DNA from: a virus
Length of the DNA stretch: 30,419 nucleotides
Virus record (IMG/VR): IMGVR_UViG_3300023184_000380
Span: 1-30,419 of that record
Strand: one strand, 5' to 3'
Shown here: piece by piece, positions 1,124 to 30,419 of the stretch
Layout: each line of letters begins with the position of its first letter
How positions within the stretch are numbered: position 1 is the first letter of the stretch
Notes under the pieces: generated by a model
The model's database searches: none
What the model was told of the DNA's origin: nothing
What the model saw: only the letters and a program-made list of their open reading frames with translations
Translations under genes and position numbers: made by a program

Positions 1124-3445
1124 TTAACTTAATGATGCTCTTATTGTTTCACCAATATTAAAGAATGTTATAGTATATGCGTAATTACTTACTAAAGCTG
1201 CTTGTGTTATTGTTGGGTTTGTTATTATAGTTCCCGCAGTACTACCAGCTGACCAAGTAGTTGGAACTGTTGAAAAACCTGAAGTTGTAGTTGATGCATT
1301 AAATGATACCGTTCTTGTAGTTCCTCCAGTATTTTGAATAAATACTATAACAGATCTACCTTCAGTTAAATTTGAAATGTACAATGGTGGGGTCGCTCCA
1401 AAAGATGCAATCCAAGTAACCCTATTATACAATGATGCGTCTACCGTTAAAGTTGCCGTTGCCGTACTATTCAAATAAGTATATGTTGCTGGTGATGTTC
1501 CTGAAGTTCCATTAGTTCCTGATGTACCATTAGCACCTGAAGTTCCGCTTGAACCTGAAGTCCCTGAAGAACCACTTGTTCCTGAAGTTCCATTAGTTCC
1601 TGATACACCTGAAGTTCCATTGGTTCCAGCATCTCCTGTTCTATTAAATGTTAATCTACCATAATCAAGATTATTTATTGTACCATTAAAATTGATAAAT
1701 GATACTCCAATCTTGAAATAACCTGTTTTTTCTTCAACAGATAGAATATTATATTGTAAAATATAATCAGAAGAATCAGTATTAGTTCCTCCAATTAAAG
1801 TACATTGTCCCTTATTTGTTGAACTACTACCAGACCAAGATCTAAACCAATCTTGATAATCAGCCAAACTAAAACCAAGATCATCAATATACATAAAAGT
1901 TATGTTTGCTAATGTAGTTGTATTAAATTGTAATTTACCTGAACCAGGATCAGTATCGGTTATTGAAGTTGAATATCTATATAAAACAGCGTTTGATGCT
2001 CCATCTTGACCTGATGTACCGCTTGAACCTGAAGTTCCACTAACACCACTTGTACCTGAAGTACCTCGTGTTCCACTAGTACCATTAGTTCCTGATGTAC
2101 CATTTATTCCTGAAGTCCCGTTTGTACCATTAACACCTGATGTTCCGTTTGTACCTGATACACCTGACGATCCATTAGTTCCTGATAAACCTGAAGTTCC
2201 GTTTGTACCATTAGTTCCTGATAAACCTGAAGTTCCGTTTGTACCATTAGTTCCGTTAATACCTGATGTTCCATTTGTACCATTTACCCCCGATGTTCCA
2301 TTTGTTCCTGTCGCTCCATTTATTCCTGATGTTCCATTTGTACCATTTACCCCCGATGTTCCGTTTGTTCCTGATACACCTGATGTTCCGTTAGTCCCTG
2401 ATATACCTGATGTTCCATTTACACCACTTGATCCATTTGTCCCTGATGTTCCGTTAACACCACTTGATCCATTTGTCCCTGATGTTCCACTACTACCATT
2501 TGTTCCATTAACACCCGAAGTTCCACTTGTTCCTGATGTCCCCCTTGTTCCACTTGTTCCATTAACACCTGATGTTCCTGATGAGCCTGAACTACCTGAT
2601 GTACCACTTGTACCTCGCGTTCCTGATGTTCCGTTACTTCCACTTGTTCCATTAACACCTGATGTTCCTGATGAGCCTGAACTACCTGATGTACCACTTG
2701 TACCTCGCGTTCCTGATGTTCCGTTACTTCCACTTGTTCCTGAAGTACCAGATGTTCCTGATCCTCCACCTCCACCACCTGTAATTCCACTAACAACCAA
2801 TTCATTACCATTCAATGTAACCAATGTAAGTTCTGTTGTTCCACTATTATATGTTCCACCTGTATAAGCATAATCTTGGAATGTATGACAACTAGCCAAA
2901 TCATTACAAGTTAACCATTGTTCTTGAACCTGATGTTGTGTTGGGACATTTATTGTAACATTACCCAATGGGGTAACACAATTTGAATGAATCAACTTCA
3001 ATCTAATATCACACATCCAACCAGTTACCTTATCTGTGGTCTCATCCTGAACGATCTCTGGGTTGATCGGATCATCAGTCAACATAACTCCATACTGACC
3101 CAAATAAACGGATATGAAGTTAATTAAATCCTGTAGTATTTGGAATGTATCAGATAGAATCTCTTGTTCGTTATTAGATTCATACCCATTTGTATCTTCG
3201 TAGTTTTTTTGGATGTTGATCTTATCAACAATAATGAATGTTAATACCATTTCAGGTATCTGTGTTTTGTTTGTAACCCCAATTGTTGATGAGGTTCTAT
3301 GTGTAATCCACATATATGCCGGATCCATCTGTCTTGATGTTCCAATCATTGAGGTATCACCATATCCAAAATCATTCAACTGAAGATGTGCATCAGCAAA
3401 GTCCTTGAAAATCTGTATTAATTGGTTTAGTGAAATTATATTCAT
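1124..3445 (-). CDS. Tail-terminator-like domain fused to collagen-like repeat fibre
   Basis: 773 residues. Residues 1 to about 190 are non-repetitive and resemble the tail terminator/completion proteins of Bacteroidota phages: a start of the form 'LNQLIQIFKDFADAH', a 'FGYGD' motif near 26-30, 'EILSDTFQILQDLINF' near 95-110, and a late 'GWMCDIRLKL'. About 225-480 are Gly-Thr-Ser/Asn triplet repeats like collagen. About 480-607 are a non-repeat insert of the type often seen in phage fibres. About 607-650 are a second repeat block, and 650-773 a beta-rich C-terminal cap. One polypeptide thus seems to join a tail-end protein to an exposed fibre. The DNA of the repeats contains a perfect 90-bp tandem duplication. 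The 5' leader is nearly the same as that of the second collagen-like gene at 25426. A simpler label is 'tail fibre'. Confidence 0.75.
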   Translation of the reverse strand: MNIISLNQLIQIFKDFADAHLQLNDFGYGDTSMIGTSRQMDPAYMWITHRTSSTIGVTNKTQIPEMVLTFIIVDKINIQKNYEDTNGYESNNEQEILSDTFQILQDLINFISVYLGQYGVMLTDDPINPEIVQDETTDKVTGWMCDIRLKLIHSNCVTPLGNVTINVPTQHQVQEQWLTCNDLASCHTFQDYAYTGGTYNSGTTELTLVTLNGNELVVSGITGGGGGGSGTSGTSGTSGSNGTSGTRGTSGTSGSSGSSGTSGVNGTSGSNGTSGTRGTSGTSGSSGSSGTSGVNGTSGTRGTSGTSGTSGVNGTNGSSGTSGTNGSSGVNGTSGTNGSSGVNGTSGISGTNGTSGVSGTNGTSGVNGTNGTSGINGATGTNGTSGVNGTNGTSGINGTNGTNGTSGLSGTNGTNGTSGLSGTNGSSGVSGTNGTSGVNGTNGTSGINGTSGTNGTSGTRGTSGTSGVSGTSGSSGTSGQDGASNAVLYRYSTSITDTDPGSGKLQFNTTTLANITFMYIDDLGFSLADYQDWFRSWSGSSSTNKGQCTLIGGTNTDSSDYILQYNILSVEEKTGYFKIGVSFINFNGTINNLDYGRLTFNRTGDAGTNGTSGVSGTNGTSGTSGSSGTSGSSGTSGANGTSGTNGTSGTSPATYTYLNSTATATLTVDASLYNRVTWIASFGATPPLYISNLTEGRSVIVFIQNTGGTTRTVSFNASTTTSGFSTVPTTWSAGSTAGTIITNPTITQAALVSNYAYTITFFNIGETIRASLS
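2551..2730. repeat. Perfect 90-bp tandem duplication in the collagen-like gene
   Basis: 2551-2640 and 2641-2730 are identical over 90 bases, which is 30 codons (ten Gly-X-Y triplets), so the frame is kept. A partial third copy starts at 2731 and breaks off after about 10 bases. Identity even at silent sites points to a recent duplication. Confidence 0.93.
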
Positions 3446-3530: not shown

Positions 3531-3824
3531 TTATTTCTGATTACTCATTTGATGTTCTATAACTTTATCCCGTTGATAGAAGAATGATAACCAATTCAGA
3601 CAATGTATATAATTCATTTCATAGACTTTTTCTTCTGTCGTATTGAGTTCTGTTATAAACTTGAAGATCATTTGATATGATGAAAATTTATCATCAATCT
3701 TACTTGCCCCATTTATATTCTCATACCTACTTTTAGGTTTATCATCTTTTACTTTTCGTTTTCCAAAGATACCCTGGTATTGGTCGGTGATAAATTCCCG
3801 CCATTTGAAAAATATGATAGTATA
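3531..3824 (-). CDS. -1 frame extension of the tail assembly chaperone (GT-like form)
   Basis: In the -1 frame relative to the 3749-4336 gene, 97 codons are open from just after a TAA at 3825-3827 to a TAA at 3531-3533. The product looks like real protein: KWREFITDQYQGIFGKRK at the overlap, then an acidic/helical tail with EEKVYEMNYIHCLNWL and SFFYQRDKVIEHQ. There is no start codon in a suitable place, so it is expected to be made by slippage. The best site by eye is the U5 run at 3808-3812 (frame 0 UAU UUU UCA, -1 frame UUU UUC AAA). A second candidate is the AAAAG just before the stop at 3749-3751. Slipping at U5 gives a fusion of about 268 residues. Without this reading, 3531-3748 would be an unexplained gap. 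Confidence 0.65.
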   Translation of the reverse strand, partial: YTIIFFKWREFITDQYQGIFGKRKVKDDKPKSRYENINGASKIDDKFSSYQMIFKFITELNTTEEKVYEMNYIHCLNWLSFFYQRDKVIEHQMSNQK

Positions 3825-4336
3825 TTATGAACCTTCGTAATTGATATTGTTGAAAACTTTTCTGATCTTAACATAAACTCATTCCTAAATGATTCAAGAT
3901 TACCACTCTTATTCTTCTTTCTTAAGAATATACACAATAACTTATCCATTACTTTTAAGAGGTTATTTTCATTCTGTTGAAGTAATGTATCAATGGATAG
4001 TATTTCCCCCATTGTAAGTTTTTCAAAGTCCTGTTTAAGAAAAAACTCCTCACCATCTACTTCAATTGATTCTACATTTTCTCCTTCAAGTTCTTTGGTT
4101 ATAAATGTGATTACCTTTGAAATCATTTGGAAGTCATCGGGGGTCATCATCATTAACTCATCAAATTTTATATTGGTGAATACACTAACAATCCTTACGA
4201 CCTTTTGTATTTCATTTAATCCCTCGTCTGATGTTGCAAATAGATCACAGAATTGTTTTACGGTTACCTCATCCCAATTTTCAGGGATCATATATTCTGT
4301 CATTATGTCATCAATTTCTAATTCTAACTTTACCAT
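3749..4336 (-). CDS. Probable tail assembly chaperone, short (G-like) form
   Basis: 195 residues. Tail assembly chaperones bind the tape measure protein while the tail tube grows, and usually exist as a short form and a longer frameshifted form. This protein has the features of the Bacteroidota-phage version: IPENWDEVTVKQF near residues 17-29, a helical middle (VVRIVSVFTNIKFDELM), KLTMGEILSIDTLLQ near 106-120, and a hydrophobic MDKLLCIFLRKK segment. Beyond its stop, a -1 frame stays open for 92 more codons. It starts 18 bases after the large terminase gene, in the same unit. Family assignment is by pattern and by the frameshift layout. Confidence 0.6.
   Translation of the reverse strand: MVKLELEIDDIMTEYMIPENWDEVTVKQFCDLFATSDEGLNEIQKVVRIVSVFTNIKFDELMMMTPDDFQMISKVITFITKELEGENVESIEVDGEEFFLKQDFEKLTMGEILSIDTLLQQNENNLLKVMDKLLCIFLRKKNKSGNLESFRNEFMLRSEKFSTISITKVHNILSYFSNGGNLSPTNTRVSLENEK
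3808..3812 (-). promoter_or_regulatory. Candidate -1 ribosomal slip site (U5 run)
   Basis: The message reads CAUAUUUUUCAAAUGG. The Phe codon UUU (3811-3809) can re-pair perfectly with UUU one base back, after which UUC is read. It lies only 12 bases past the stop codon that bounds the -1 frame, so nearly all the open overlap is used. The A-site part is not a classic X XXY YYZ heptamer. Confidence 0.35.
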
Positions 4337-4354: not shown

Positions 4355-5551
4355 TTATGCAAATCTAAATGGTCTTGTACCACTACTTTCTTTTCTTACT
4401 CCTAACTTCATCATTGCCACATATCTTAACGCATCAATTGCGTGATTGTATGCATCAATTGGGGTCTTTTCATAACCACCATCCCTATTCTTTTTCCACA
4501 TATATTTACTGAACTCATCAAGTAGATTGGTTGATCCCCTTGTTATCAATATATGTTTTTGTTGTAGAATCTGAATACCATAGTTAATACTATCTTTTCC
4601 TTTTTCTACTGGTTTAACCTGATGACCATATCTTTTTAATTCGTGTATTGATTTAGGTTCAGCAGAGTCAGCAAAGATTTCACCCTTAACTCCACTCTGT
4701 TTCATTATATTAGATAGTTCTGAATTTAATAATCCTGTTTGATATACCACCTCATCAACAACAAGATCATCATTATATTTGTAGATCGCTATAAGTGCTG
4801 CAGGATCTTGACTAAAACCAAAGTCCAATCCATATCCAAGTAATCTTGCGTCTTCAGGGATCTTATCTATGATATTGAAGTCAGTAAAGATTGTTCCTTC
4901 AACCTGACCAATCTCCCCATCTAAATATACTCTACACCAATTCTCCCAATATGTTGAGGTCTTTGCCTTTTCCCTATTTACCTCAAGTTGTTTTACTATT
5001 TCTTCTGATAACGCTTCATTATCTTTATATGTTAATACCAATAATTCCGTATCAGGTTGTCCTATTACTTCTGTATGAACCCAAAACTTACTGGTTGGGT
5101 TGTAGTCCAAATAAATTTCCCCATCTGTTCTAATTTGAAGTTGTAAAAAAGAATCATAAGAAATGTTATTACTTTCATTACAATACAATATGTTTCTTCT
5201 TGCTCCCCTCAATCTACTTTCGTCATCCACACTAAAAAATTCAATGTATGATCCATTGGTAAATTCGTATCGTAGAAGGGTTTTATTATAGTGAGTTGGA
5301 ATATACCTACCCGTCTCCTTCATAATCTTCAGGAAGTCCTTGTTTGCTCCCCTACGGATATGCGGTATACTCTCTGATACAATAGATATTTCTATGTTGG
5401 GGGTTTTGATTGCCCGATCAATTAGAATAGCCAATATGGAAAATGTCTTGGAAGCAGAAGTTCCACCCTGAATTACTTTAATTCGGGATTTCATATTTCT
5501 AATCTTCCTTAACGCAGATGTATAAATAAATTTACTCTTCTGTGTCGTCAT
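4355..5551 (-). CDS. terL: Terminase large subunit
   Basis: 398 residues, the usual length for the Terminase_3 type. This motor packages DNA into the prohead and cuts the concatemer. ATPase part: Walker A GGTSASKT at 29-36, Walker B with catalytic Glu ILYCNE at 121-126. Nuclease part: GLDFGFSQDPAA around Asp243, FADSAEP around Asp295, and IDAYNHAIDALRY around Asp367/Asp373, so all three acidic groups are present. The start overlaps the end of the small subunit by 20 bases, indicating coupled translation. The chaperone gene follows, rather than the portal gene as in most phages of this type. Confidence 0.95.
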   Translation of the reverse strand: MTTQKSKFIYTSALRKIRNMKSRIKVIQGGTSASKTFSILAILIDRAIKTPNIEISIVSESIPHIRRGANKDFLKIMKETGRYIPTHYNKTLLRYEFTNGSYIEFFSVDDESRLRGARRNILYCNESNNISYDSFLQLQIRTDGEIYLDYNPTSKFWVHTEVIGQPDTELLVLTYKDNEALSEEIVKQLEVNREKAKTSTYWENWCRVYLDGEIGQVEGTIFTDFNIIDKIPEDARLLGYGLDFGFSQDPAALIAIYKYNDDLVVDEVVYQTGLLNSELSNIMKQSGVKGEIFADSAEPKSIHELKRYGHQVKPVEKGKDSINYGIQILQQKHILITRGSTNLLDEFSKYMWKKNRDGGYEKTPIDAYNHAIDALRYVAMMKLGVRKESSGTRPFRFA

Positions 5552-14178: not shown

Positions 14179-14691
14179 TTATCCGATTGGAATATCAGTT
14201 CCTAAAACTGCTGGATCTAATAAGAAAGCTCCTGCTGCTGACTTCCAAGAGAAAGTCAATGTTGCACCATTCATATCTCCTAAAAGAACTCCCAATTGAG
14301 CCATACCTTCAGTTGCTCTACCTGCGGTTTCAACACCTAAAACATAGTATTCACCAGCGTTAGATTTAACTACTGCGAATAATGGTGCGTTTCCTAAAGC
14401 AACGATTAAATTTCTTAACTCTGCAGTTAAGTGGATAAATTTAGATGATAATGCTGATTCATAGAATACAGTTCCATTTTCACGACTAAACGCTCCAGTT
14501 TGAACTAATCCAAAAAACTCAATATCACCTTCCATTTCATACACGGTTACACCTGAAGTAACACCTGTTACGATGTTGTTAGCGTCATACGCATAAGTAG
14601 CATCTGCAGACCACGTACCGATCCACATTTTTTCAACACCACCGATTGTATTACATCCTAATGCCCACCCTTGATCAATTATACAAGACAT
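14179..14691 (-). CDS. Major tail tube-like structural protein
   Basis: 170 residues. It resembles the tail tube proteins of Bacteroidota siphophages: a Cys-containing start (MSCIIDQGWALGCNTIGGVE), VYEMEGDIEFFGLVQ, SRENGTVFYESALSSKF near the middle, a LRNLIVALGNAPLFAVV helix-strand, and the strong LGDMNGATLTFSWKSAAGA near the C-terminus. It has a high proportion of small residues, fitting a high-copy protein. It follows the capsid gene, separated by a hairpin. It is the last gene before the terminator at 14131. Confidence 0.55.
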   Translation of the reverse strand: MSCIIDQGWALGCNTIGGVEKMWIGTWSADATYAYDANNIVTGVTSGVTVYEMEGDIEFFGLVQTGAFSRENGTVFYESALSSKFIHLTAELRNLIVALGNAPLFAVVKSNAGEYYVLGVETAGRATEGMAQLGVLLGDMNGATLTFSWKSAAGAFLLDPAVLGTDIPIG

Positions 14692-17920: not shown

Positions 17921-20797
17921 TTAGAAACTAGCTGCTCGTTCCATTCTACTTATTCTTCGTTGTGAATTTGTTATCTGACTTTCAACTACATAAGCCTGAA
18001 CTACCTGTTGTTGAGGTTGGAATACATTACCTTGACTATAAGGATTTGTGAATGCCACATCAGGTACTAATCTTTTTCCACCACCAGCTTGATTTATATC
18101 ACTCAATAGTTGTGGGAACATCTGTGCTGATTGTGAATTAACTACAACCTCACCTGGTGCAAGTAATGATGGAACTGAATCTACATTACCTGACTGACCA
18201 TTTTGTGGAACTACACCACCTTGAGCTGCACGGAATTGTTGTGAAGCAATGATTGCGACTTGAGCAACCCCCAAGACCGCAGCCAATGCCATTAAGATAG
18301 GATTTGGTAATGCTTTTGTTATACCCACCGCAGTAGCCATAACCGCATTAACTATATTCAATGCCTTCTGACGCCTAAATTCTTTAATTTCAATTTGTTT
18401 TTTTCTTTCAGCGGCTGAGTTTTCTAATAACTTTTTCTTTTCATCATATTCTTTTTCGGTAATTTCACGATTTAGAAGTGATGCACTTAATTGTTCTTGT
18501 TCATTTGCCGTCAATTGTTCTAATGTTCCAAGTTGATTATCTGCAGCTTGTTGGAATGCTTGTGAAAATAAGCCTGTAATCTGTGCTGAAATTTCAGCAA
18601 TTTTACCAACTAATTTTGTTAGGGTATCCATCCAATTCTCTTCCCAATCTTTTTGGAATTGAGTATTTAATTCACTTAAAGTTTGTAATTCAGTTCTTGT
18701 TTTATCTGTGGTTTTTTCAAGTGTTGTTTCTTTTAACTTAAGAATCTTATTTTCAGCTTCTTCAATAATTTTTGTTCTTTGATCTTCAGTTAACTTTGTA
18801 TCCCTTAATTGAATTTGTGCTTGTAGTTTAATTATCTGTTCTTCGTTGGTTCTAATTCTATCTGCAAATGATTTACGAATAGCAGTTTTTTGTTCTTCAG
18901 TTGTTGCTAAATTTAATTCTTGTTGTTGTAATGAATCTAATTGTATTTTTTGTATTTCAAGTTCAACTAACTTTTCATCTTCTATTTTTCTTTGTGCATA
19001 TGTATTTCTAATTTCTGCAATCTTTGTATCACGAGCGGTTTCAAAATAAGCGGCATCTTTAATTTCTTGATCAAAATTTTTCTTAACCAATTCCATTTCC
19101 GATTTAAGTGCCTTTTCTTTTGCTAATCTTGCTTTCTTCGCTGCAGGAGTTTCTCCACCACCACCAATAGTAACATTTGAGGCTCTTACACGAGCTTCAC
19201 CTTCTTTCTTAATAACTTCTAATTGATCCTTTAGATATATTTCACTATCTGATTTAATACCACCTAACGCAGTTTTATAAGCTTCGGCAGTTTTATAAAT
19301 TCCTTTTGCTCTATTTTTCTCAACCTCATCAATTGCGTCAGCTTGAAGTTTAATTAAGTTATCGGCTTTTTGTCTTTCTTTAAGAATTGCTTGTTCCTCT
19401 TCACTTACCGCTTTTTCTTCATCAATAATACCTTTAAGAGTTTCTTTATATTTTAATCTTGCATCAATACTTTCTTCAACTGCATCAGTATTAGTTTTTA
19501 TGTCTTTGGTATTAGTATTAACTACATTATTATTAATTTTATATTTTGAACTTAATGAATTAACTTCATCACCTAAAGTAAAAGTTGTTTTTGTTAATCC
19601 TTTTAGATTTTCACCTAAATTTTGAAATTTGTATGTTAATGCTAGTGCGTCTCCACCATATTGTTTAATTAAGGCATCCATTTTTTGCCTATTTTCAAAA
19701 GTTTGTTCAAGACCAACATTTTGCATTTTTTGTAAACCTTCTTCAAGTTTTACTCTTTCAACAATTATTTTTTTAATCTTATCTTCATTAACAGACATTT
19801 TATATTTAGCCTCAGCGAGTTTAATATAATCATCTATTGCAATATTTAATTGTTGTTGAAATAAATTTTCATTAGATAAATTTTGTAATGTTGTTCCATA
19901 TTGTTTATTTATTTGACCTAATAAAAGTAATCTTTCTTTTGATCCTTGATTTGACCCTTTTAATTGTAAAACTAAACTAACAAATGCTCCTGTTTCTTTG
20001 AAAATATATTCACCATGCTCTTTAGTTGCCTTAGCATTTTGTTCCATTAGTTTTTTCTGTTCTTGTAAAAGTTTTTTTCTTTTTTCTTCTTCTTTTGCCG
20101 CATTACTTGATGAAGAAGCGTAAGTTACAAGACCAGCAATCAATAATCCAAGAGCGGTTACAATTGCAACCAATGGAAGAGCATTTAATGTTACGGCAAA
20201 TGCACCTGTTGATACTGCCGCTGCATCAGCAGCAATAGCCTCAGCCCCTTCAGCGACTGCCGCTTCAGTTGCCGCTACCGCAGTGGCTTGTTGTGCAACC
20301 GTTACAATACCCAATGTTTGAGCAAGTCCCATAAAGGATGCCTTTATCTGTGTGATCTTATCCCCTAATCCACCGAATGTTTCTATCGCTTGGGATAGAT
20401 TCATCAATGCAGTTAATTTGGCAATTGTTTTAGTGATTTCCTCACTTTCAACCCCCATTAGAGTTTGTGCTGCCGTAACTGATTGGAATGCGGCAACACC
20501 AATAGATGCAACAGATGTTAAACCCTTTCCAAGATTTTCAGTTACATTACCTGCAGTAGCGTTAATTACTGCGTTTGTATCAGCTATAGTATCACGAAGT
20601 TGTCCTGCCTTCTGTGTTAGTTCAGTAAATCTTGCTGAACCTGGTTCTAACCCTTGAAGTTCTTGGGTTATTTGTCTTAATTGAAGTTTTAATGAAGCCG
20701 TAGTGTTATTAGTTTGACCTATAGTTTGATTTAGATCATTAACACTCTTCTGTGCTTGAGTAGTATCTACCTTAACATTTATAGTTGCAGTTTGCAT
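17921..20797 (-). CDS. Tail tape measure protein
   Basis: 958 residues. The length of this protein sets the length of the tail, so a long non-contractile (sipho-type) tail is likely. The N-terminus (MQTATINVKVDTTQAQKSVN, then QLRQITQELQGL) and the long Gln/Lys/Glu-rich coiled coils are typical. Membrane-like segments occur at about 205-228 (NALPLVAIVTALGLLIAGLV) and about 845-865 (PNPILMALAAVLGVAQVAII). The C-terminal GGVVPQNGQSGNVDSVPSLL, followed by APGEVVVN, is a common tape measure signature. It lies between the HAD gene and the protease, rather than after the tail chaperone as usual. Confidence 0.9.
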   Translation of the reverse strand: MQTATINVKVDTTQAQKSVNDLNQTIGQTNNTTASLKLQLRQITQELQGLEPGSARFTELTQKAGQLRDTIADTNAVINATAGNVTENLGKGLTSVASIGVAAFQSVTAAQTLMGVESEEITKTIAKLTALMNLSQAIETFGGLGDKITQIKASFMGLAQTLGIVTVAQQATAVAATEAAVAEGAEAIAADAAAVSTGAFAVTLNALPLVAIVTALGLLIAGLVTYASSSSNAAKEEEKRKKLLQEQKKLMEQNAKATKEHGEYIFKETGAFVSLVLQLKGSNQGSKERLLLLGQINKQYGTTLQNLSNENLFQQQLNIAIDDYIKLAEAKYKMSVNEDKIKKIIVERVKLEEGLQKMQNVGLEQTFENRQKMDALIKQYGGDALALTYKFQNLGENLKGLTKTTFTLGDEVNSLSSKYKINNNVVNTNTKDIKTNTDAVEESIDARLKYKETLKGIIDEEKAVSEEEQAILKERQKADNLIKLQADAIDEVEKNRAKGIYKTAEAYKTALGGIKSDSEIYLKDQLEVIKKEGEARVRASNVTIGGGGETPAAKKARLAKEKALKSEMELVKKNFDQEIKDAAYFETARDTKIAEIRNTYAQRKIEDEKLVELEIQKIQLDSLQQQELNLATTEEQKTAIRKSFADRIRTNEEQIIKLQAQIQLRDTKLTEDQRTKIIEEAENKILKLKETTLEKTTDKTRTELQTLSELNTQFQKDWEENWMDTLTKLVGKIAEISAQITGLFSQAFQQAADNQLGTLEQLTANEQEQLSASLLNREITEKEYDEKKKLLENSAAERKKQIEIKEFRRQKALNIVNAVMATAVGITKALPNPILMALAAVLGVAQVAIIASQQFRAAQGGVVPQNGQSGNVDSVPSLLAPGEVVVNSQSAQMFPQLLSDINQAGGGKRLVPDVAFTNPYSQGNVFQPQQQVVQAYVVESQITNSQRRISRMERAASF

Positions 20798-21289: not shown

Positions 21290-22573
21290 TTATATCCAAA
21301 CGGCTCCTGTACCATGCAATGTAATAGAAACAAATGTTGATACCGTATTATTAACTACACCTGAACTAGTTGTTTTATATGTAGCCCCATAATACATTAA
21401 ATCGTAAGGTGATCCACTTGCACCATCATATTGTTGTGTTACTGATATATTTGATGAATCCATATATGCTCCTGCAGCTCCATTAGTACAACCATATAGT
21501 ATACAAGCATTTGATGGTAATGATCCAAAAGGATATGATACACTGGTTAAAGCGGATTGATTACTTGTTCTATATGGTGTGGTTGATGTTAAATTTTGTA
21601 ATCTAAATACACCTATTGCAACATCATCAGGAGTTGATAATGTAAATATTACATCAGCAGTTGTTCCTGTAGATGTTATATTTGCATACATTATTTTTGT
21701 TTGAGTTCCATTTTGTATAATTGTTGCTGAAACACCACCTATTGTTGCAGAACTTATAGTTATAGTAGATCTATTATGAACTACAATAGCAATCAATCCA
21801 GCTCCACCTGTATTAACACTTCTAAAAGATTTTGATGTACTTTGTGTAGGATCAAATAAACTTTCACTAAAACTAATAATTGTTGGTATTGGTGCGGTTG
21901 GTGTTGGTGTTGGTGTGCGTGTTGGTGTGAGTGTTATTGTTGGTGTTAATGTTGGAGTAGATGTTAATGTCGGTGTTAATGTAGGTGTTGTGGTAAAAGT
22001 TGGTGTAGGTGTTAATGTAGGTGTAGTTGTTGATGTAGGTGTCGGAGTTAATGTCCTTGTTAATGTAGGGGTAGGTGTAGATGTTAGTGTAGCGGTTAAT
22101 GTCTGTGTTAATGTAGGAGTAGGTGTAAGAGTTTTTGTAGGGGTTAATGTCTGTGTTGGTGTAGTAGCAGGTGTAGATGTTAGTGTAGGGGTTAGTGTAG
22201 GTGTAGGTGTAGGTGTTGGGGTTAATAAATTCCAACTATTCCAATAACCATTTGCGGTTAACCAATTTGATGCATCATTACCTGTTGTAAAACTTTGTCC
22301 AAATAAATAATTGGTTAGTTCAACAAAAGATGATTCAGTTAAACCTGTTGATCTATTGAATGCAACAGAACCTGTTCTCCCATCAGGAGCAGGTTGACTA
22401 TCATCAGGAACAGGTAATGCTATTACATAACCTAAATCCTCATCAGCTCCATTCCACCATTCCATAGATCCTGTAAATCCAGAAGTTGGATAACCTACTG
22501 CCAATGATCCTACTTGAATTGTTCCTGGTATTGAAGCTCCTGTGTTATATGCAAATGGTCTTGATGTACTCAT
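21290..22573 (-). CDS. Fibre-like protein with a Thr-Pro repeat linker
   Basis: 427 residues in three parts. About 1-113 is a globular domain ([67 protein letters not shown]) that recurs at the N-terminus of virion proteins in uncultured phages. About 114-228 is almost only Thr-Pro with Leu/Ser ([16 protein letters not shown]), an extended stalk. About 229-427 is a beta-rich C-terminal domain, a candidate binding head. The odd antisense frames here (Val-Gly and Asn-Thr repeats) come from the repeat DNA. Likely a surface adhesion protein. Confidence 0.7.
21890..22235. repeat. Low-complexity Thr-Pro coding repeat
   Basis: Imperfect 6- and 12-base units (plus strand ggtgtt, ggtgta, gttaatgta) run over about 345 bases and code for TPT/TLTPT. 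The units differ at many silent sites, so the array is older than the 90-bp duplication at 2551. Confidence 0.85.
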
Positions 22574-22962: not shown

Positions 22963-23187
22963 TTATAAAATTGAACCAGTAATTGGTGGTGATGGATTAC
23001 ACCATTCAATCATAGTTAAATCTTTAACCCATAAAAATTCTTCATTAGTTGTATTATCAATTTCTTCACTTGAAATAATCCAATCCTCATTACAATCTTT
23101 TACTGGATTATAATACCAATCTAATGTAACCATTTGACCTGTTAATAAATCTTTTTCTTCTTCTGTTAATAATCCTACTAGTGTCAT
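22963..23187 (-). CDS. Small hypothetical protein, fibre region
   Basis: 74 residues. The pattern LLTEEEKDLLTGQM near the start, YYNPVKDCNEDWIISSEEID in the middle and FLWVKDLTMIEW near the end is familiar from many phages of Bacteroidota, where it follows fibre genes, but no function is known to me. It sits in the chain of fibre genes. Confidence 0.7.
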   Translation of the reverse strand: MTLVGLLTEEEKDLLTGQMVTLDWYYNPVKDCNEDWIISSEEIDNTTNEEFLWVKDLTMIEWCNPSPPITGSIL

Positions 23188-23197
23188 ATTTTTTTAT

Positions 23198-24007
23198 TTA
23201 ATTTTGTCTTCCTAATGTTGTTTGGCATGCTTGAACTACCGAATATAGATTTGATGCATCAGTTGATGTTAAATTTGTACCAGCAGAGACAAAACAAAAA
23301 TTTTGATTAGAATAACCATCACTATAAGGACTACCATTTAAATTAAGAGTTCCAACATATATATTTTCTGTTGCTATACCAGAACCACCACTTGATCCAT
23401 TCAAATCTAATGTTCCATTTTTATAATATTTAGGGGAATTTGCTGCTCCTTTTGTTATAACATAAAATCCTTTAACTGTTGAATGACTAACACTATCAAC
23501 CCCAAGATTAAATCTGGCAACATAATTTGATGTCCTTATCCCCACTAATGAACTATATGCTAAACCACCTACACTAGGTAATACACCAATATCAACAGTA
23601 TCACCTTTACTCATCGCATTGTTGGTGTTAAGATAGATTGTTATATGTTCATCATTAAATGTTGCATTACTAGCGGGTTTATAAAAACTATCTGCATAAC
23701 CATTTGTTCCATTAGGTCTAAATCCATCTGTATGAGTTATTCCACCATAGTAAGTTAATCTAAATGCCGCATCTAAATCTCTTGGATCTTTTAAGTTATA
23801 CTTATTTGATGTTGCCGTCCCGCCAACAAAAGGATATATTACCTTTAATTTAGTCCATAACCCATAAGATTTTAGATCTACAACCATAGTGTTTATTGCA
23901 CTTTCTATAGTTGGACTTGTATTACCAATTGCAGTTAAGAATGCTGCAGCATCTGGATCTAATGATGATCCTACTGTTTTAATAAATGAAAAAGGATATA
24001 CAATCAT
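23198..24007 (-). CDS. Tail fibre-like protein, possible LamG/concanavalin fold
   Basis: 269 residues. The start SSLDPDAAAFLTAIGNT, then ESAINTMVVDLKSYGLWTKL, KVIYPFVGGTATSNKYNLKD and FRLTYYGGITHTDGFRPNGT is a layout seen in many phage surface proteins. The rest (HITIYLNTNNA, YYKNGTLDLNGSSG, NIYVGTLNLNG) looks like the strands of a lectin-like sandwich. A host-surface sugar-binding role is inferred. It starts directly at the stop of the collagen-like gene with no gap. Confidence 0.65.
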   Translation of the reverse strand: MIVYPFSFIKTVGSSLDPDAAAFLTAIGNTSPTIESAINTMVVDLKSYGLWTKLKVIYPFVGGTATSNKYNLKDPRDLDAAFRLTYYGGITHTDGFRPNGTNGYADSFYKPASNATFNDEHITIYLNTNNAMSKGDTVDIGVLPSVGGLAYSSLVGIRTSNYVARFNLGVDSVSHSTVKGFYVITKGAANSPKYYKNGTLDLNGSSGGSGIATENIYVGTLNLNGSPYSDGYSNQNFCFVSAGTNLTSTDASNLYSVVQACQTTLGRQN

Positions 24008-25426
24008 TTAAGTAAAGTTTTGTATATAAGAAGCGAAGTATTTAGATCCATCATAAATGAATGTATACACATCAAATTTATTGGCAGTTGCCGTCATAGT
24101 AGGTGTTGTTCCTCCTGCCCAAGTAACCGTACCAGGCCAAGTAATAGTGTTAGAACCACCTGATGATTGTTTTATTATCAATATATAAGTTGCTCCTGAA
24201 TTTGAATTACTAAATGTAAAAGTTGTTGATGCTCCTAATGTATATTCTTGAACATTACCATTATTAAAATTTATAGTTGTTGCACTTGTTGTTGTTCCGG
24301 TTGTTGGTAATGTAATCCAAGTTTGTCCTGATGTAATTTGTATATTTCCAGTATAGGGTGATGCAAATGATGTTCCTGATGTTCCGTTAGTTCCTGATGC
24401 TCCATTAGATCCACTTGTCCCATTTGTTCCTGCAGCTCCATTAGATCCACTTGTCCCATTTGTTCCTGCAGCTCCATTTATTCCTGATGTTCCATTAGTT
24501 CCTGCAGCTCCATTTATTCCTGATGTTCCATTAGTTCCTGCAGCTCCGTTTATTCCTGATGTTCCATTTACACCTGATAAACCTGATGTTCCGTTTGTTC
24601 CTCTATCACCTGTAGCACCATTTATTCCCGAAGTTCCATTTGTTCCTGCGGCTCCATTAGTCCCTGATGTTCCATTCGTTCCTGATGCACCTGGTTCACC
24701 TGTGGCTCCATTAGTACCTGAAGTTCCATTAGTTCCATTAGTACCATTTGTTCCTCTATTACCTGTAGCACCATTAGTCCCCGAAGTTCCGCTAGTTCCA
24801 TTAGTTCCGTTCAATCCACCTGAACTACTCCAAGAAATAGTATATTCACTACCATCATTTAATTGATCTGATGATGCTAATGGAGGATCAAGAGTAATAG
24901 TAATATATCCTGGTGTCCCACTATATTGAATTATAGTATCTATAACATAAACACCAATAACTGAATTATTTCCAACCTGTGTAATCTGAAAATACATTGT
25001 TCCACCAGCCGTTTGAAGTGCCGTAAGAGCATCAAACCATCCGATATAATCTGTTCCATTGATATCATAATTTGATATCGTTATAGCTGACATTGTTGAT
25101 AAATTAAATGTATTTGTATTGAAGTAATTGGAGGTAGGATCTTCATCAGATTTTCCTACAATATCATATATCCAACGACCTGAACTTGAACCATCATTTG
25201 CACTCATTGTGGTACCTGTTGTTCCTGATGCAGTTAAATCTAATAAACCATTATCAGTTCTAACCCAAAGCCTATCGTCTTGTGTGTTTAAGAATGCTTC
25301 TCCAACTAATATATCTGTATTTGTCCAAGTTGAATTAATAGTATCTCCTGATGGAATTGTTGGAACAACACCTGCAACGGTAGATCTCTTAAAAACCAAT
25401 CTTGAATATTCGGTAATGTTTGACAT
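24008..25426 (-). CDS. Collagen-like tail fibre
   Basis: 472 residues. The N-terminal part (EYSRLVFKRSTVAGVVPTIP, LVGEAFLNTQDDRLWVRTDN) resembles the virion-anchoring domain at the start of many phage receptor-binding proteins (Mtd-like). About 202-352 are GTNGTSG/GAAGTNG triplet repeats. The C-terminus (FNNGNVQEYTLGASTTFTF, GATYILIIKQSSGGSNTITW, TANKFDVYTFIYDGSKYFAS) is the common beta-rich fibre tip. It probably forms a trimer. There is a leader element like that of the gene at 3445. The repeat DNA contains 36-bp units. Confidence 0.85.
   Translation of the reverse strand: MSNITEYSRLVFKRSTVAGVVPTIPSGDTINSTWTNTDILVGEAFLNTQDDRLWVRTDNGLLDLTASGTTGTTMSANDGSSSGRWIYDIVGKSDEDPTSNYFNTNTFNLSTMSAITISNYDINGTDYIGWFDALTALQTAGGTMYFQITQVGNNSVIGVYVIDTIIQYSGTPGYITITLDPPLASSDQLNDGSEYTISWSSSGGLNGTNGTSGTSGTNGATGNRGTNGTNGTNGTSGTNGATGEPGASGTNGTSGTNGAAGTNGTSGINGATGDRGTNGTSGLSGVNGTSGINGAAGTNGTSGINGAAGTNGTSGINGAAGTNGTSGSNGAAGTNGTSGSNGASGTNGTSGTSFASPYTGNIQITSGQTWITLPTTGTTTSATTINFNNGNVQEYTLGASTTFTFSNSNSGATYILIIKQSSGGSNTITWPGTVTWAGGTTPTMTATANKFDVYTFIYDGSKYFASYIQNFT
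24370..24820. repeat. Collagen-like coding repeats with 36-bp units
   Basis: Near-identical 36-base units recur in frame: one reading gatccacttgtcccatttg then ttcctgcagctccatta at about 24408-24479 (twice), and a second reading ttcctgcagctccattta, ttcctgatgttccatta at about 24465-24560 (close to three times). Each is 12 codons, so loss or gain keeps the frame. Confidence 0.8.
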
Positions 25427-28510: not shown

Positions 28511-30419
28511 AATCTAATTTCGTTGTTTGCGTATACGATTGTTAAGTTATATTGATAGATTTGTTCATCAATCGCTTTACCAAATTGTAATGTATTGTTG
28601 TCTATAGTACATCCATATACATTATTATTAGGTGTTTGGACATAGACTTCAGCTGATTGAAGAAGATCTTTTATAAGGACATTTTCATAATCATAAATCC
28701 ACCCTGTATTCAATAGAATTTTGTCTCTACTTCTAACAAAGAATGTTTTATCCCCACGATCATAAGTGTTATATCCAAAAGTATTGTTATCCCAATTCCC
28801 TGCAGTTTTGTAATATGATTTTCTATCTACATCAGTAGTATCTGTGGACATATATTTGAATGGATATACATTCCAAGATCCGTGAGCATCTTTCCAAATC
28901 AATTGGAATAAATCATACATACTACAATCTGTGTTTATTTCATAGGTATATGTTTCAGATCTTGTTGATCCCCCTATACCTGTTGTTGCAAAAACTTCAT
29001 ACGATGCAATTTGATCATAAATTGTAGGTAAATATACTGTATCAATTCTATTTGTTGAATTAAGTAATTGATCAACCCCGATTGGAGCATAATAATCCTT
29101 ATTATTTCCACTAACATTTGATATAAATGAATTACCCAAATAATTTCCATTGATGTCATACCATGTAAATTTTAATCCTGTTGTATATGATGAGGTTGAG
29201 TTATGAACTAACAACCAAGATCTTGCACTCTTTTCAATTCTATATTGTTGTGATGGATCTAATATTGTTGATAACTTACTTGTAGATCCTGATAACACAT
29301 ATTGGTTCATATCAGTTAAAGAATAATCATATATATTCACATAAGAATTAAAAACATTCTTATCACTAATTGTTAATATCTTATAATCATATGTAACCAA
29401 ATCATTGATTGGGGTTATTGTTCCACTGATTGCTGGTGAATTTCCTGCCCATCCAACATTAGTTGTTATTACTACTCCTGTGCCAGCAGTATAAGTGATA
29501 TTGGTAATGATTGCCGTTGTATTGTATTGTGGTATAGGTGTTCCCCATAATGTTCCTGATTGTGATGCAATTGAATTAGTATAATTCTTTGATAAGATCA
29601 TACTACTTGTTGTAGGAACACTTAACACGGTTGTATATCCATTATAACTTGGAGCGGTAGTAATGTTCTGTAAATACACTACATCATTTGCAGTAAATCC
29701 GTGTGCTACCGATCCTGTTAATTTAATCTTATTAACACCTGATACATTTTGACTTGTTAATCCTGTGTAAGTCCAAAAATGTGCGTTCTGTTGAATTAAG
29801 ATCTGATCCCCAATACTAAAATCTACCTCACTAACTGAAGTCATTCCACTATTAACAAATCCTACATAACCATCTGAAAAGTAATTATCATTAAATAAGA
29901 ACACTGGTGTGTTCTGACTACCACAATATAAACTATATGTAAATCTTGTATCATCACCAGCAAAACATTCATCAACATTTTCAAAGTTCTGTGTAACAAA
30001 ATCCTTTAATACATTTGATAAGTCCATTCTTGCCTCACCATTTGGATCAGGTGTGAATTTATATTTGATTACTCGTGAAACATATAGGGGTAATGCTATT
30101 GTATGTGTTTGTGTTAGATCAATTATAATTGATGTAGATGATGGAATACTTACAATGTTATAATAACCTCTGTAGAATCCATCGTTATCATCTAAAAATA
30201 GGGTATCACCAAGTAAGTAAGGATGTGCAGATGAAAATGTAATCTTGGTATATACATTATATCCAAATGTTGCTTGTGAATTTGAAAATGCACCTTTTCT
30301 ATCCCAAATAATATTGACTATATATTTATAGTTATCAACATTATCAACTTCTGTGTCAGTTAATCTTAATGGAACTGCCGCATATCCGTGTTGATAAATA
30401 TTTGGTTGTGTTATTGCCG
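28507..30419 (-). CDS. Large tail-associated protein, C-terminal 637 residues (5' end cut by window edge)
   Basis: The frame is open past the ATG at 30027 (MDLSNVLKDF) to the last base, and copy 1 of the end repeat shows the true start at base 600 (equivalent to 30429), giving 640 residues. The protein is beta-rich with a compact C-terminal part (DCSMYDLFQLIWKDAHGSWN, DRGDKTFFVRSRDKILLNT, QSAEVYVQTPNNNVYGCTID). It is followed with a 4-base overlap by the hub candidate, so it is probably part of the distal tail. No family is named with certainty. Confidence 0.8.
   Translation of the reverse strand, partial: AITQPNIYQHGYAAVPLRLTDTEVDNVDNYKYIVNIIWDRKGAFSNSQATFGYNVYTKITFSSAHPYLLGDTLFLDDNDGFYRGYYNIVSIPSSTSIIIDLTQTHTIALPLYVSRVIKYKFTPDPNGEARMDLSNVLKDFVTQNFENVDECFAGDDTRFTYSLYCGSQNTPVFLFNDNYFSDGYVGFVNSGMTSVSEVDFSIGDQILIQQNAHFWTYTGLTSQNVSGVNKIKLTGSVAHGFTANDVVYLQNITTAPSYNGYTTVLSVPTTSSMILSKNYTNSIASQSGTLWGTPIPQYNTTAIITNITYTAGTGVVITTNVGWAGNSPAISGTITPINDLVTYDYKILTISDKNVFNSYVNIYDYSLTDMNQYVLSGSTSKLSTILDPSQQYRIEKSARSWLLVHNSTSSYTTGLKFTWYDINGNYLGNSFISNVSGNNKDYYAPIGVDQLLNSTNRIDTVYLPTIYDQIASYEVFATTGIGGSTRSETYTYEINTDCSMYDLFQLIWKDAHGSWNVYPFKYMSTDTTDVDRKSYYKTAGNWDNNTFGYNTYDRGDKTFFVRSRDKILLNTGWIYDYENVLIKDLLQSAEVYVQTPNNNVYGCTIDNNTLQFGKAIDEQIYQYNLTIVYANNEIRL
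29830..30419. repeat. Terminal direct repeat, copy 2 (matches 1-590)
   Basis: This is the second copy of the end repeat, 582 of 590 bases identical to the left end. It covers the 5' part of the large tail gene whose true start is only visible at base 600. The reading frame is open in both copies. Confidence 0.93.

Follow-up and report, generated by a model that had tools for sequence, protein, structure and literature searches.

A putative tail assembly chaperone pair with a probable −1 frameshift at a shortened U-run, adjoining the terminase gene in a family of uncultured phages

A downstream reading frame without an early start

On the minus strand of IMG/VR record IMGVR_UViG_3300023184_000380 (30,419 nucleotides, the whole of which was analyzed and is referred to here as the window), an open reading frame next to the terminase gene ends while a second frame, displaced by −1, stays open beyond it. 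How is this second frame translated, and what might the two products do? In phage lambda, low-level −1 frameshifting gives rise to proteins G and GT, with G binding the tape measure protein and T binding the tube protein, and the G/GT frameshift is widely conserved in long-tailed phages (PMC5009743). We conclude that the window locus is very likely a lambda G/GT-like tail assembly chaperone pair, made by −1 slippage at UAU UUU UCA. Frameshifted chaperone pairs are a well-known type of system; the new elements are a tail chaperone family of uncultured phages that is unnamed in Pfam, PHROGs, and NCBIfam, its distance from the tape measure gene, and a shortened slip site in the window and its closest relatives.

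The first frame, G, is a putative tail assembly chaperone gene of 195 codons (3749 to 4336, minus strand), running from an ATG at 4336 to a TAA at 3751 to 3749, and it is kept in all relatives. Directly upstream is the gene for the terminase large subunit (TerL; 4355 to 5551, minus strand), recognized by matches to PF17288 (4.7e-14) and TIGR01547 (2.8e-23). The second frame, T, has 97 open codons (3531 to 3824, minus strand) and closes with a TAA at 3533 to 3531. The first ATG, GTG, or TTG in the T frame of the window is at residue 52, and therefore no ordinary start serves T; an independent start was rejected, and T would be reached only by frameshifting. The slip must occur inside the overlap of the two frames, which extends from 3749 to 3824 (minus strand) in the window and is 37 nt long in a sister clade described below. 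The original prediction had placed the G stop at 3749, the −1 frame at 3824 to 3531, and a U5 run at 3808 to 3812, and all of these proved exact on rechecking.

The −1 arrangement is shared by 79 distinct pairs

IMG/VR was searched with G, T, and progressively enlarged alignments, and 79 distinct G/T pairs were recovered, including that of the window, all on viral contigs. All 79 share both the −1 position of T relative to G and the site of the junction. Neither G nor T had a sequence match among phage isolates, and no prophage relatives were found in GTDB bacterial genomes. Among the first 60 distinct pairs the fused protein is 262 to 275 amino acids long (with the exception of L068, which has a short G), and the stretch of G beyond the junction ranges from about 3 to 38 codons; in some members (e.g., L017, L018, and L022-L024) the G stop codon UAA lies immediately 3′ of the U-run. 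Because the fused length is nearly constant and the G tail is free to vary, we read the frameshift as programmed.

The original prediction had named a −1 frame broken by stops, or a separate start codon serving it, as the findings in relatives that would speak against a frameshift. The frame is open and in the same register throughout the 79 pairs. The expectation that no separate start would be present holds in nearly all of them, where the first possible start codon is well past a conserved FFxWR motif, and fails in L083 and L173/L175, in which a longer open frame has an ATG upstream of the slip site.

T in the window clade evolves as a protein, under purifying selection in the −1 frame. Beyond the G stop, 35 synonymous sites carry 10 changes and 181 nonsynonymous sites carry 7, and dN/dS is 0.11 in the −1 frame versus 4.15 in the G frame. 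The open −1 frame, conserved in each relative recovered, exceeds what chance would give. Synonymous change is lower just after the slip site (3 of 16.7 sites, versus 10 of 30.7 later in T), a difference that is suggestive, the sites being few. We also note that one contig (IMGVR_UViG_3300028571_000063; 34147 bp) carries two different G/T pairs, L042 and L050, about 28 kb apart and one near each contig end; the contig may exceed one genome, joining two related variants.

The window has a shortened version of a family slip site

The candidate slip site of the window is UAU UUU UCA (3806 to 3814, minus strand), with the U5 run at 3812 to 3808. The run is unremarkable by itself, because the window coding strand has 40 runs of five or more T; its weight comes from being placed exactly where 77 other distinct members have U6 to U10, in a homologous site of the form U UUU UUN. 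Run lengths in these 77 of the 79 distinct pairs are U9 (52 members), U8 (15), U10 (8), U7 (1), and U6 (1), and U5 is present only in the window and a sister clade of four contigs (L001-L004) with a G 83% identical to that of the window. In the first set, all 58 members without U5 have the core T TTT TTT in 0-frame register; in the 19 members added later U UUU UUN is likewise in register, taking the form U UUU UUC in L173/L175. Of the 64 coding-strand runs of at least eight T in 315 kb of family DNA, 57 are G/T junctions.

The slip codons of the U5 clade are UAU or CAU followed by UUU UCA, and the U5C is the same in the window and the four sister contigs. When the first 60 distinct fusions are placed in a tree, the U5 pair occupies a separate branch within a family whose remaining members have U7 to U10; U5 is therefore most simply taken as a reduced form of a longer U-run slip site, in which the first UUU would have become UAU or CAU. 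Re-pairing in both the P and A sites, according to the canonical X XXY YYZ rule, is available in the 77 others, whereas in the window UUU alone re-pairs, and U UUU is the sole spot for full P-site re-pairing that we noticed inside the overlap common to the window and its sister clade. The A-site UCA cannot re-pair as UUC, and slippage would therefore involve a single tRNA, with an efficiency that may be low; probably, the P-site tRNA-Phe re-pairs from UUU to UUU. The original prediction had thus picked a slip site in the right place and correctly described it as differing from the classic heptamer. It had also offered AAAAG near the G stop as a second candidate, which finds no support and was rejected: G of the sister clade ends at TTA TAA, 13 codons earlier than in the window and ahead of AAAAG, which therefore cannot be a conserved site.

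We propose that most ribosomes would synthesize G (195 amino acids), and that a minority would slip by −1 at UAU UUU UCA (3814 to 3806), with the P-site tRNA-Phe leaving UUU and re-pairing with the overlapping UUU one base upstream. Translation would then continue with UUC AAA UGG (F-K-W) into T, making a fusion of about 268 amino acids (..SYF-FKWREF..). By analogy with lambda gpG/gpGT, a many-to-few product ratio is expected (PMC5009743). G would be predicted to interact with the tape measure protein, the T part of the fusion would bring in the tail tube protein, for which the product of 14179 to 14691 is a candidate, and neither chaperone would be expected in virions.

Immediately 3′ of the slip site (3763 to 3803, minus strand), two hairpins are possible that are weak and not significant, with window and L001 folds giving z scores of −0.8 to −1.7 against shuffled sequences, and there is no family-wide RNA fold signal (mean z, −0.4 to −0.8). 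The lack of both a heptamer in the window clade and a significant RNA stimulator counts against the chaperone-pair reading. The U10-to-U5 sites could form a natural series. The window clade would then have exchanged a tandem heptamer (or RNA polymerase slippage) for single-tRNA slippage in the P site, possibly aided by a newly acquired 3′ element, and would have kept the fusion; taken as a whole, this scenario is rather doubtful. The PRFect program uses eight motifs derived from tail chaperone genes of phages, among them a backward-frameshift motif called 'five' (PMC10885494). This motif, from actinobacteriophage chaperone genes, was derived from annotated overlaps of largely high-GC phages (PMC10885494), and may be comparable to the window U5 site.

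Ribosome or RNA polymerase as the slipping machine

An alternative source of the fusion is RNA polymerase, slipping on T8 to T10 family-wide to give an extra U in the mRNA, with the window clade either having changed mechanism or making little fusion. Bacterial RNA polymerase slips efficiently at nine A or T residues (review PMC5009743), and most family members have T9 or more, with a run of about nine A/T at the frame change in the U9 and U10 relatives. However, the window clade has T5, and slippage is undetectable at T5C5 without context features (PMC5009743); on these data, the U9 relatives could use transcriptional slippage, and the window probably cannot. Moreover, the ribosomal heptamer stays in register where the run is T6, T7, or T8, which favors the ribosome as the slipping machine, although the encoding of Phe-Phe by both frames at once could preserve the heptamer too. 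We therefore regard RNA polymerase slippage as an unlikely account of the family and favor slippage by the ribosome. The U10-to-U5 sites at one homologous place are a ready set with which to measure the U-run needed for −1 shifting in Bacteroidota, and could also tell which of the two machines slips.

Evidence for a tail chaperone role

Among tailed phages, a G/GT arrangement with a −1 shift is a hallmark of tail chaperones. The window pair resembles lambda gpG/gpGT in having a short upstream open reading frame, a −1 shift near its 3′ end, and a T domain without its own start; it differs in that no sequence similarity was found between the two pairs, in that its slip site is U5 (U UUU UUN in the relatives) and not lambda's heptamer, and in that it adjoins the terminase gene and not the tape measure gene. 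Matches of G and T to Pfam, PHROGs, and NCBIfam entries do not exceed chance level. An AlphaFold model of G (pLDDT 83) matches many uncharacterized phage proteins, as well as annotated tail assembly chaperones in BFVD (E values of 1.3e-3 and 0.048). Foldseek of this model against the PDB gave nothing below an E value of 1. When solved structures were re-aligned, the top rank went to the HK97 tail assembly chaperone (2ob9), which matches the N-terminal half of G; with a Z score of 4.1 over 75 residues and 4% identity this match is weak, and the score is too low to assert a common fold. G is also longer than 2ob9, with an extra C-terminal helical part. The T model is of low confidence (pLDDT 66) and has no fold match. 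The annotated tail chaperone of Flavobacterium phage FPSV-S2 was considered as a relative and belongs to a different family.

A putative tape measure protein of 958 amino acids is encoded at 17921 to 20797 (minus strand), with its role assigned from length and context. Homologs are present in all 15 pair-carrying records compared. With the genome taken as a circle, the window gene lies about 12.6 kb downstream of G/T, close to the 13 kb by the circular path that had been predicted, and in the 15 related records the tape-measure-like gene is always 7 to 13 kb downstream of G/GT on the same strand, as calculated from match coordinates with circular contigs allowed for. A chaperone pair directly upstream of the tape measure gene is the usual arrangement, and not a universal one; neither the window nor the 15 relatives has it. 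If the chaperone assignment is correct, such a pair can adjoin the terminase gene, far from the tape measure gene.

These features leave room for a different function, in which the frameshift is real and G and G-T act at some other stage of head or tail assembly. Such a role would suit a gene that, in all relatives, neighbors the terminase gene and is separated from the tape measure gene by 7 to 13 kb, and would also suit the absence of family matches above chance; the same distance, the lack of a named family, and the weak 2ob9 score count against the chaperone-pair reading. On the other side are the typical association of −1 G/GT arrangements with tail chaperones, the fold matches to annotated chaperones with 2ob9 at the top rank, and the co-occurrence of a tape-measure-like protein, and we think a nonchaperone function improbable. 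The frameshifted pair of the original prediction is thus borne out, and its tail chaperone role is supported by structure and co-occurrence, and is not proven.

A related architecture in a cultured flavobacterial phage

The G model has a fold match to a protein of Nonlabens (Persicivirga) phage P12024S (JQ823122; E = 3.6e-8), and the relation to this phage was reached only through structure. The product of P12024S gene 38 (175 amino acids) aligns with the G profile (hhalign E = 2.6e-5), and the gene contains the codons CTT TTT TTT TAT, forming a U9 run. The −1 frame there encodes FFLSFRERL and has a weak match to T (E = 1.4e-3). We infer an unannotated −1 frameshift at the U9 within 23136 to 23830, leading from gene 38 into the frame that contains gene 39; gene 39 would be the C-terminal part of T only, annotated as a separate gene, and the P12024S annotation can be corrected in this respect. 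From its sequence, P12024S has a G-U9-T architecture in a cultured flavobacterial phage, with a TerL-G-T order and T in the −1 frame as in the window, and differs from the window in having U9 with the heptamer in register.

In Flavobacterium phage 6H (10044 to 10927), a protein whose fold matches G weakly precedes open stretches in each of the two other frames, and the final stretch has a T-like tail; this may be a frameshifted gene or a sequence error. The 6H locus showed no clean single frameshift.

T appears to be retained in the window clade

The shortened slip site could also mean that the fusion is no longer made in the window clade, with the site decayed and T in the course of being lost. 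The window site has lost one of the two UUU codons found in all relatives, as decay would predict, but T is intact, has stayed under strong purifying selection after the window and sister lineages diverged (dN/dS of 0.11 at a dS of about 0.36), and is preceded by a U5C that is unchanged in both clades, and we consider such decay very improbable. Homopolymer frame breaks are a common artifact, but a sequencing or assembly error is effectively excluded here because the identical break recurs across dozens of contigs, drawn from many metagenomes, as well as in the P12024S isolate genome, with the U5 version in five contigs at two divergence levels.

Other features of the window genome

The window ends repeat each other (1 to 590 and 29830 to 30419; about 98% identity, copies spaced 29829 bp apart), and the genome is therefore circular or terminally redundant, about 29.8 kb long, with slightly different end copies. 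Its TerL is 56% identical to that of Flavobacterium psychrophilum phages, and the host is probably a member of the Bacteroidota. Two predicted tail proteins (1124 to 3445 and 24008 to 25426, minus strand) have long collagen-like GTSG/GTNG repeats, the former matching PF01391 (E = 1.5e-42), and a predicted protein at 21290 to 22573 (minus strand) has ends that both look folded, separated by a long repeat of threonine and proline (TPTPTLTPT).
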